In this document: in pieces, positions 27,566-30,885 of the stretch
Layout: each line of letters starts with the position of its first letter
Position numbering within the stretch: position 1 is the stretch's first letter
Source of the DNA: an uncultured Fidelibacterota bacterium
GTDB lineage: Bacteria > Fidelibacterota > Marinisomatia > Marinisomatales > UBA1611
Assembly (NCBI GenBank): GCA_902611135.1
Contig: CACLYL010000010.1
Location: 1-35,886 of the forward strand
Reading direction: 5' to 3'
DNA length: 35,886 bases
Notes under the pieces: generated by a model
The model's database searches: none
What the model was told of the DNA's origin: nothing
The model's input: the letters and a program-made list of their open reading frames with translations, nothing else
Translations under genes and position numbers: made by a program

Positions 27566-28417
27566 ATGAATCTTAAAGAAAAATTAACATATATATCTTT
27601 AAAGTTACTAAAAAAGATTTTCTCATTACTAAACACAAGGTTAAGGTTTTGGGTTTCTAATTTTATTGCAATGATTATTTACTTTTTATTCCCTGTTCGA
27701 AAGAAAGTCGCCTTAAAAAACCTAAGTGTTGCTTTCCCAAAATGGAGTGAAAAAAGAAGAAGAGCAACCCTATTTAAATGCTATAAATTTTTTATTCATA
27801 ACTTAATTGAATTCTTAGCATTCCCTTATTCATGGCAAGGTATTGAAATAATAGTAAATGGAGAATCAAGAGTAAGAGAATTTTTAAAATTAAATAAGGG
27901 CGTTATATTCGTTACTGGGCATCTAGGCTCTTGGGAAATTATGGGTAGCTGGATAGGAAGGAATTTCCCTAAATTTACAGGGATCGCCATAAAACAAAAA
28001 AACCTGGGATCACATCAATTTTTTATTGAGCAGAGAGAATTAGCTGGAACAAGGCACATATTTAAAAGAGAGTCAATAAAGAAAATGTATAATGTGTTAT
28101 CTTCAAACGGGATTTTGGGATTAGTGAGTGATCAAGACGCCAAGAAGAATGGTGTTTTTGTTGATTTTTTTAATAAACCGGCGTCAACGCCGAAAGGCGC
28201 TGCGCTTTTTAATATAAATACTAATGCTCCTATAATTATTTCAATCTGCAATCAAATACATTATAACAAATATAAGATTACATTCTATCCATTAAGAGAA
28301 GATTATAAAACAGTAAAATCAATTACTCAAGGATATACGAGTATTTTGCAAAATAATATTGAAAAGTTTCCAGAACAGTACTTTTGGTTTCATAAAAGAT
28401 GGAAAACAAAGCCATAA
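27566..28417 (+). CDS. Lipid A biosynthesis lauroyl/myristoyl acyltransferase-like protein (LpxL/HtrB family)
   Basis: 'VIFVTGHLGSWEIMGSWIGRNFPKFTGIAIKQKNLGSHQFFIEQRE', 'GLVSDQDAKKNGVFVDFFNKPASTPKGAALFN', 'FPEQYFWFHKRWKTKP'. Confidence 0.92.
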   Translation: MNLKEKLTYISLKLLKKIFSLLNTRLRFWVSNFIAMIIYFLFPVRKKVALKNLSVAFPKWSEKRRRATLFKCYKFFIHNLIEFLAFPYSWQGIEIIVNGESRVREFLKLNKGVIFVTGHLGSWEIMGSWIGRNFPKFTGIAIKQKNLGSHQFFIEQRELAGTRHIFKRESIKKMYNVLSSNGILGLVSDQDAKKNGVFVDFFNKPASTPKGAALFNINTNAPIIISICNQIHYNKYKITFYPLREDYKTVKSITQGYTSILQNNIEKFPEQYFWFHKRWKTKP

Positions 28418-28435: not shown

Positions 28436-29011
28436 ATGAAAAGAAAAATAACTAATTGGAAAACCTCTAATGCAATAGAGGAATGTATTAGAGTTTTAGA
28501 TAATGATGGAATAATTGCATATCCAACTGATACTTTATATGGCCTAGGTTGCAATGCAAAAAGTTTCAAAGCAATTAAAAGAATTAATAAAATAAAACGT
28601 AGAAAATCACCAATTAGCATAATAATTAACTCAGAAAAATCAATTTTAAATTGGATAAATGTAGATACTAAGTATAATAGATTTATTTTTGATAAGCTCT
28701 CTACCTCAAACACAGTAATCGTTCCCATCAAAAAGGGATTTGTTTCAGATCATATTTTAGGCAGTGGTCAAACACTTGGTGTTAGAATTCCTCACCACGC
28801 GTTCTGCTTTCAAATTACAGAAAAATATCCCAATCCAATTACAACTACCAGCATAAATACGACTGGTGAAAAACCACTTACAAGTCCCAATTTAATTAGA
28901 AAAAAGTTTGGAAAAGAGATTGACTTAATAATAGAAGATGGTATCATAGACAATAAAAGCTCTAAAATTTATTTATTCAAAAAAGAAGGATTTAAACTAT
29001 TAAGAAGTTAA
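28436..29011 (+). CDS. tsaC: Sua5/YciO/YrdC/YwlC family threonylcarbamoyl-AMP synthase
   Basis: 'LDNDGIIAYPTDTLYGLGCNAKSFKAIKRINKIKRRKSPISIII', 'VIVPIKKGF...LGVRIPHHAFC', 'ITTTSINTTGEKPLTSPN'. Confidence 0.92.
   Translation: MKRKITNWKTSNAIEECIRVLDNDGIIAYPTDTLYGLGCNAKSFKAIKRINKIKRRKSPISIIINSEKSILNWINVDTKYNRFIFDKLSTSNTVIVPIKKGFVSDHILGSGQTLGVRIPHHAFCFQITEKYPNPITTTSINTTGEKPLTSPNLIRKKFGKEIDLIIEDGIIDNKSSKIYLFKKEGFKLLRS
28984..28990 (+). promoter_or_regulatory. Shine-Dalgarno-like AGAAGGA, 8 nt upstream of the putative ATT start at 28999
   Basis: aaaAGAAGGAtttaaactATTAAGAAGTTA read directly. Confidence 0.5.
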
Positions 29012-29715
29012 TACTCATACTTTTTTCCCATCTATCCATTACAACTCTACAGGCATCAGACATTCCTTTTGAAATAGGTGAAACACTTAAATATCGAGCA
29101 TCTTTTTCCTCTATCCCTGCTGGAAGTGCAATTTTAAAGGTTATCAAAAAAGAGGTTATAAACGATATCAACACTTTTCACATAAGATTTAAAGCTCAGA
29201 CAGAGGGATTTACAGATCTAATTTTTCCAATTGACAATGTTATTAATATTTGGTTAGAGGAAAACTCCTTACTACCTATAAAGATTGAAGAAATTATAAA
29301 CGAAGGAAAATATTCTAGAAAAAGATTATATATCATTTATCAAAATCAAGGATATGGCATAATTAATAATGAGGATACACTTAAATTTGAAGAAGAGGTT
29401 CACTCTCCATATAGCCTTCTCTACTTTTTTAGAAAAAGTAATTTTAAAACATTAAATAAAAAGAAGATAAATATTCTTAAAAAAAAATCTTTTGAAACTC
29501 TAACAGTTGATATCAAGAGTAATTTAGAGGTCAATTCAAAATATGATCGCTGGCTTTCAACTCGTGTCGAGCCAAGAGGAGTTAAACGCGATAAATTTAA
29601 AAATGATTCTGCTATTTCTATATGGTTTGCTGAAGACAATAAAAAATATCCTATAAAGTTTTGGATAACAATGAAATATGGAGGACTGCTATTGGAATTA
29701 TATGAATCCGAATGA
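28999..29715 (+). CDS. DUF3108-like secreted protein, apparent non-canonical ATT start; absent from supplied ORF track
   Basis: Open frame (i)KKLILILFSHLSITTLQASDIPFEIGETLKYRASFSSIPAGSAILKV...VEPRGVKRDKFKNDSAISIWFAEDNKKYPIKFWITMKYGGLLLELYESE*; signal peptide follows the ATT directly; upstream in-frame stop TAA at 28993; no in-frame ATG/GTG/TTG near the N-terminus. Confidence 0.82.
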   Translation: MKKLILILFSHLSITTLQASDIPFEIGETLKYRASFSSIPAGSAILKVIKKEVINDINTFHIRFKAQTEGFTDLIFPIDNVINIWLEENSLLPIKIEEIINEGKYSRKRLYIIYQNQGYGIINNEDTLKFEEEVHSPYSLLYFFRKSNFKTLNKKKINILKKKSFETLTVDIKSNLEVNSKYDRWLSTRVEPRGVKRDKFKNDSAISIWFAEDNKKYPIKFWITMKYGGLLLELYESE

Positions 29716-30885
29716 TCAAAAAAACCGATTTATATCATTAAACATCACAGTAAGCATTAATAAAAGTAAAAATGACATTCCAATTTGCTGAATAACAATT
29801 CTTGTTCTTAGCGTTAATGGCCTCCTTATTAATGCTTCAATTGTGTGTAAAAAAATATGCCCTCCATCTAATCCAGGTATAGGGAGTATATTAATAAAAG
29901 CAAGATTAACACTTATTAAGGCCATAAAAGTAAAAAATGGAATCCATCCCGCTTCGGCAGTTTCTCCAGCCAGCTGTGCTATCATTATTGGACCTCCAAA
30001 GTCAGAAACACTTGCACTTCCTGAAATCAACATATTAATACTCATGATCATCATACCAAAACTACCAACAGTCCTGTTGTAACCTATAATTAAAGCATTT
30101 AAAAGAGAGATGTCTGAATATAAAATAACTGGAGAAATTCCAATTAAACCAATAGTATCTATTTTGCTACCGTTAGGAAAAGGTGAACTCATAGTTTTTA
30201 AGTCGTAATCAATTAGTTCGTCACCACGTTCAATAACCATCGAAATTTCTTCTTCAGGTAAACTATGAATGATAGATGTCAAATCATCCCAGGTACTAAC
30301 ACTTTTATCGTTGATGAATTTAATTTCATCTCCAGGCAACATGCCTGCAACTTCAGCAGGCATTCCTTTTTTAAGTTCTGATATTATAGGCTCATTTAAG
30401 ACCTCTGATTTTCCTTGATAATATCCAATAGTTGCAAAAATTATGAATGCTAAAAAGACATTCATTAGGACACCAGCACTTAATATCCAAATTTTTTCCC
30501 AATATGATTTAACAATAAATTCATCATCTTTGTACTGTACATCTGAATCTAAACTTTCATCTAGTATACCTGCCATTTTAACGTAGCCGCCTATTGGCAA
30601 TAGCGCAATTACATATTCTGTTTTTGACCCTTTTCGACCTGGTTTATTTATTTGGTTTGTGTAAATAACATCCCACTTCAACTTACCTTTCGACCATTTA
30701 AAAAAGTATACTTTAAGTTCTATGAAATCATTTAAGGATTTTAATTGAATGAATCTTGGCGGTATCCCAATTGAAAATTTCTCAACACGTACTCCAACTG
30801 AACGTGCTGCCTTAAAGTGACCATACTCATGTATAGTTATTAGAATTCCTAATATTAAAGCTGTCGACCATATTATTGTAAACAT
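29716..30885 (-). CDS. rseP: Site-2 zinc metalloprotease RseP
   Basis: 'HEYGHFKAARSVGVRVEKFSIGIPP', PDZ region 'GMPAEVAGMLPGDEIKFIND', 'NILPIPGLDGGHIFLHTIEALIRRPL'. Confidence 0.95.
   Translation of the reverse strand: MFTIIWSTALILGILITIHEYGHFKAARSVGVRVEKFSIGIPPRFIQLKSLNDFIELKVYFFKWSKGKLKWDVIYTNQINKPGRKGSKTEYVIALLPIGGYVKMAGILDESLDSDVQYKDDEFIVKSYWEKIWILSAGVLMNVFLAFIIFATIGYYQGKSEVLNEPIISELKKGMPAEVAGMLPGDEIKFINDKSVSTWDDLTSIIHSLPEEEISMVIERGDELIDYDLKTMSSPFPNGSKIDTIGLIGISPVILYSDISLLNALIIGYNRTVGSFGMMIMSINMLISGSASVSDFGGPIMIAQLAGETAEAGWIPFFTFMALISVNLAFINILPIPGLDGGHIFLHTIEALIRRPLTLRTRIVIQQIGMSFLLLLMLTVMFNDINRFF

Follow-up and report, generated by a model that had tools for sequence, protein, structure and literature searches.

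A conserved DUF3108 gene in the stretch of DNA analysed here (35,886 nucleotides, hereafter the window) reaches its first in-frame ATG, GTG or TTG only at codon 225. We think it probable that the gene is intact, that it codes for an exported, beta-barrel-like protein and that it is translated, presumably weakly, from an ATT codon at position 28999, with initiation proceeding via an AGAAGGA motif at 28984-28990 and/or by re-initiation after the overlapping tsaC gene. The window comes from the draft genome (1.36 Mb) of a marine, uncultured member of Ca. Neomarinimicrobiota (Marinimicrobia); the draft is 57.9% complete and is the single sequence for its species.

The DUF3108 gene, its product and its neighbours

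The open reading frame lies on the forward strand at 28999-29715 and consists of 238 codons and the TGA that ends at 29715. It is preceded by an in-frame TAA (28993-28995) and an ACT, opens with the ATT at 28999 followed by AAG AAG TTA ATA, and continues for another 233 coding codons. The product matches the DUF3108 profile (PF11306) with E = 1.5e-19 and 71.1 bits against a curated cut-off of 26, covering profile positions 1-207 of 209. An earlier note on this DNA, made from its letters, had described a stop-free frame running from this ATT, the in-frame TAA upstream, AGAAGGA at a spacing of 8 nt, a 13-bp overlap with tsaC, a DUF3108-like product, the lack of ATG, GTG and TTG near the N-terminus and the absence of the gene from its list of open reading frames, and all of these observations are borne out.

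Because no ATG, GTG or TTG occurs before codon 225 the gene is absent from ordinary ORF lists, and a list made with ordinary starts holds no ORF of at least 60 aa in this frame. Interior ATG, GTG and TTG codons have a combined frequency of 3.9%, at which a run of 224 codons without any of them has a probability of about 1.3e-4. In a census of 310 ORFs from the same genome (20 stretches plus the window, 436 kb) no other ORF has its first canonical start as far in as the DUF3108 gene, and the late-start ORFs next in rank were on inspection mostly interrupted genes or weak ORFs, or had an acceptable start. Three were considered as further start-less genes and rejected, L155 and L167 as interrupted genes and L170 for its fitting ATG. 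The L155 gene (contig C4, L155:11160-12340) is secreted-protein-like, contains three in-frame stops (TAA, TGA and TAA) in an otherwise coding-like sequence and is probably a pseudogene; the L167 gene (contig C17, L167:6000-7200) encodes a leucine-rich-repeat protein, contains one in-frame TAA and matches LRR profiles in its downstream part. The presence of ATT at 28999 is in itself not improbable in a genome of 31% GC.

Orthologues of the DUF3108 gene are present in 114 of the 130 genomes of the order; orthology spans the full length of the protein, internal stops are absent and the conserved positions are retained. An AlphaFold2 model (pLDDT 85.9, pTM 0.80) is confident except in the signal region. 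By eye the N-terminus is hydrophobic and led by lysine, with Lys/Arg followed by a hydrophobic stretch, and residues 2-12 form a helix in the model; the predicted signal peptide, IKKLILILFSHLSITTLQAS, is encoded at 28999-29058 on the forward strand, and the predicted mature protein begins ASDIPFEIGETLK. A PDB sequence search with the protein returned no significant relative. In a fold comparison the model is most like DUF1849 (6NTR), with weaker likeness to the YmcC-like 3FZX and to LolA-type proteins; the beta-barrel-like exported fold of 6NTR and 3FZX is common to the DUF3108 protein, but at TM values of about 0.58 and 0.38, respectively, and 6-10% identity this is a resemblance of fold only. 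The YmcC fold has already been assigned to DUF3108 proteins (PMC4364669). The product is likely an exported envelope protein, and a role in lipid or lipoprotein handling, as the modelled fold might suggest, is only a guess. In one genome of the order (G093) a pair of DUF3108 loci, very similar to each other, sits on separate contigs (L116 on C12 and L151 on C48), which may reflect either a duplication or a strain mixture.

Upstream lies the Sua5-YrdC gene tsaC (28436-29011, forward strand; PF01300, E = 8.9e-36), the tail of which reads ...LLRS-stop; its TAA at 29009-29011 places the overlap with the DUF3108 gene in the -1 frame. An arginine is found within the last four TsaC residues at 111 of 114 loci. 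Further upstream is a lipid A biosynthesis acyltransferase-like gene (27566-28417, forward strand; PF03279, E = 8.4e-42), and a gene for an M50 site-2 protease (RseP-like) is convergent with the DUF3108 gene (29716-30885, reverse strand; PF02163, E = 4.2e-56). RNA structure near the start is nothing special (z = -0.22), Rfam gave no match within the window, and a search for phage origin was likewise without a match.

Start codons at this locus and in relatives

AGAAGGA (forward strand, within the tsaC tail) has a predicted SD energy of -5.5 kcal/mol for the ATT at 28999-29001, compared with -1.4 and -1.6 kcal/mol for two ATA codons in the same frame, calculated with an assumed anti-SD that is not taken from this genome; of 265 genes sampled from the genome, only 20% have an SD this strong with that anti-SD. 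This argument is given less weight, as most relatives too have a G-rich tsaC tail at this position: AGAAGGA is in part a by-product of tsaC coding and may be nothing more than tsaC sequence. The N-terminus of the protein is a further guide. Of 108 orthologues, 106 have a Lys or Arg among residues 2-5, and these residues read KKLI from the ATT, whereas from the alternative ATA at 29011-29013 (forward strand; SD energy -1.4 kcal/mol) they read LILF, in an n-region (ILILF) that has no positive residue. The ATT is the sole near-cognate candidate that yields a signal-peptide N-terminus with Lys/Arg. It lies 27 codons from an invariant Glu, for which the distance from the start in orthologues has a median of 24 codons (10-90% range 29 to 22), and no start can lie further upstream, the frame being closed by the TAA at 28993, two codons ahead of the ATT. 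A missing upstream frame or exon was considered and rejected, since this TAA and the N-termini of the orthologues bound the start. Judged by SD energy, by how far it lies from the mature domain and by the signal peptide's need for a Lys/Arg, the ATT at 28999, which the earlier note had taken as the apparent start, is the best-supported and most plausible one.

The 5′ ends of 116 orthologous loci of the order were surveyed, and a correctly placed ATG was found in 90, only GTG or TTG in 23 and none of the three in the remaining three. One of these three is cut by a contig end, one has an ATG on inspection and the third is the present gene, which, the cut locus aside, is the only one of the 116 without a canonical start. 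The earlier note had read the ATT as a sign of deliberately low or regulated translation and had proposed its conservation among orthologues as a check. ATT is found at 1 of the 116 loci and relatives mostly start at ATG or TTG, so the regulatory reading is not borne out by the comparison, and a conserved regulatory ATT was rejected on the order-wide census, in which no other complete locus is without a canonical start.

A tsaC hit was obtained at 114 loci, and at 67 of these an NTG start is fused with the TGA of tsaC (ATGA 43, TTGA 20, GTGA 4). Such stop-start overlaps are the tsaC-DUF3108 arrangement of relatives; in contrast, the present locus has no fused start and a 13-bp overlap instead. 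In the register of the tsaC tail, the codon at the fused-start position is TTA here (29008-29010, forward strand) and CTA in the same-genus relative G001, with TAA as the tsaC stop in both, and no start codon sharing bases with the tsaC stop was found in the present gene. The same position is ATA in G013 (genus g3) and in two g4 genomes (G004 and G014), one of which we take to be AG-404-J18, a single-cell assembly. Canonical starts lie upstream in all four relatives (TTG after AGAGG in G001, TTG after AAGGG in G004 and G014, ATG in G013), and among the genomes that lost the fused start only the present one has no such codon upstream. The ATA of G004 and G014 was considered as a start and rejected, a TTG with an SD being present upstream in both. 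In G001, the DUF3108 ORF of which is intact at 47% identity, translation probably starts at the TTG, which lies four codons ahead of where the fused start has been lost. Just past the tsaC stop of G001 (L002 around 1390-1460) we also observed AAAGGAATATG, together with an out-of-frame ATG. That the fused start is lost and the gene then starts further upstream is, as far as these alignments tell, a recurring event.

Frame conflict with tsaC and rival explanations

In a -1 overlap, an NTG followed by A in the DUF3108 frame creates a TGA in the tsaC frame. Replacing ATT by ATG at 28999 shortens TsaC from 191 to 188 aa with loss of its Leu-Arg-Ser tail, whereas ATT followed by AAG leaves tsaC whole. 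Since the second residue is Lys, only a codon other than NTG can start the gene at 28999 without truncating tsaC. The relocated starts of G013 (ATG-GAA), G001 (TTG-TTT), G004 and G014 (both TTG-GAA) escape the conflict because their second codons begin with G or T. The conflict accounts for the ATT without regulation, and from the sequences compared the ATT looks like a species-level compromise and not a conserved control switch.

The usual state in the wider lineage is a start fused with the tsaC stop (ATGA, TTGA or GTGA), whereas the present genome has TAA as the tsaC stop and TTA at 29008 in place of the fused start. In the order of events that we propose, the fused start would have been lost first and the start would then have moved three codons upstream, into the tsaC frame. 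Ribosomes would bind AGAAGGA, possibly helped by those finishing tsaC nearby, and would initiate inefficiently with fMet at the AUU.

If the sequence contains an assembly or consensus error, or represents a strain variant, the start in the population would be a canonical one, such as TTG at 29008 (through A29010G, which restores a TTGA overlap) or ATG at 28999. A draft that is 57.9% complete and stands as one sequence leaves room for this, a single substitution would give the TTG with the length of tsaC unchanged, and TTGA overlaps are known in genus g11. We nevertheless consider it unlikely: a true ATG at 28999 is unattractive because the conserved tsaC tail would be lost, TTG at 29008 or ATG at 29011 would leave an n-region without Lys/Arg, unlike 106 of 108 orthologues, and the CTA of the same-genus relative means that the absence of a fused start is not peculiar to this assembly. 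Translation could also begin, through re-initiation once tsaC has been terminated, at another near-cognate codon such as the ATA at 29011, which has one base in common with the tsaC TAA. This ATA adjoins the ancestral start position, ATA is the start of all 18 infC genes examined in the family, and the fused starts of relatives suggest termination-coupled re-initiation; with its weak SD and no positive residue after the start, both of which the ATT provides, we regard it as quite improbable.

That the gene is an early pseudogene which has recently lost its start seems to us very unlikely, for although a canonical start is absent and interrupted genes occur elsewhere in the genome (L155 and L167), the 238 codons are open, the conserved positions are kept, the fold is confident and the same-genus relative, the ORF of which is intact, has lost the fused start too. 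A programmed frameshift producing a fusion with TsaC, which the -1 overlap and an A-run at 28979-28984 might bring to mind, is hardly credible and was rejected: a ribosome shifting at the A-run would terminate at the in-frame TAA that follows at 28993, inspection by eye from 28996 to 29011 revealed no slippery heptamer, and a fusion would bury the signal peptide.

Non-NTG starts in the lineage and in other bacteria

The DUF3108 gene, which we prefer to read as starting at the ATT of 28999, belongs to a known kind, that of non-NTG starts, and no new regulatory system comes to light with it. The classic ATT start is that of infC. All 30 infC genes examined in the order (L031-L060) start at ATA or ATC, and no canonical codon was found at the conserved N-terminus of any of them; because of this the lineage in all likelihood uses non-NTG starts. 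ATA is found in all 18 of the family's genes examined, and the rest of the order has ATC in 11 genes and ATA in 1, in agreement with the known non-canonical infC starts of other bacteria. Neither infC nor the universal L20 gene was found in the present draft, and its infC locus probably falls in an assembly gap. Loss of IF3 in the genus as the reason for lax starts was rejected because assembly gaps explain the missing infC: these drafts have no L20 gene either, and in one draft IF3_N sits at a contig end.

The S. aureus chromosomal genes cvfC1 (AUU), ccpN (AUA) and citZ (AUA) have an SD, and their starts were shown by ribosome profiling and reporters, AUU and AUA reaching in poor medium about 10% of the AUG level (PMC13009471). 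The starts of cvfC1 and ccpN are conserved and the AUA of citZ is specific to one strain lineage, whereas the present ATT occurs in one genome only. An AUU chromosomal start is also common to E. coli infC (PMC5472188) and, if one goes by what Binns and Masters 2002, cited in PMC13009471, state in their title, E. coli pcnB; for both there is experimental proof, and for infC also of IF3 feedback, whereas the present ATT is known from sequence. Starts of this sort are repressed by IF3 (PMC5472188). The GTC of Streptomyces sigR is, like the present start, a rare non-NTG codon misplaced by annotation, but 32 of 34 species share it and its repression by IF3 has been demonstrated (PMC5472188), again in contrast to an ATT seen in a single genome. 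By analogy with these systems, the output of the ATT start may be low and sensitive to IF3.

Whether the -1 overlap is a cause of non-canonical starts in general, such that a gene losing its fused ATGA could start further upstream only if its second codon did not begin with A or its start were not NTG, is a tentative idea and on balance a doubtful one; it fits the few cases seen in a handful of genomes, and our literature search met no such frame-conflict explanation for non-NTG starts. If the ATT start is real, this would be one of few ATT-started chromosomal genes, found in an uncultured phylum, and a conserved gene wholly missed by standard ORF rules. It suggests that a neighbour's overlapping reading frame is a simple and searchable reason for such starts, and if this is general, a hidden class of genes starting at ATT, ATA or ATC would exist at tight overlaps, missing from annotations.
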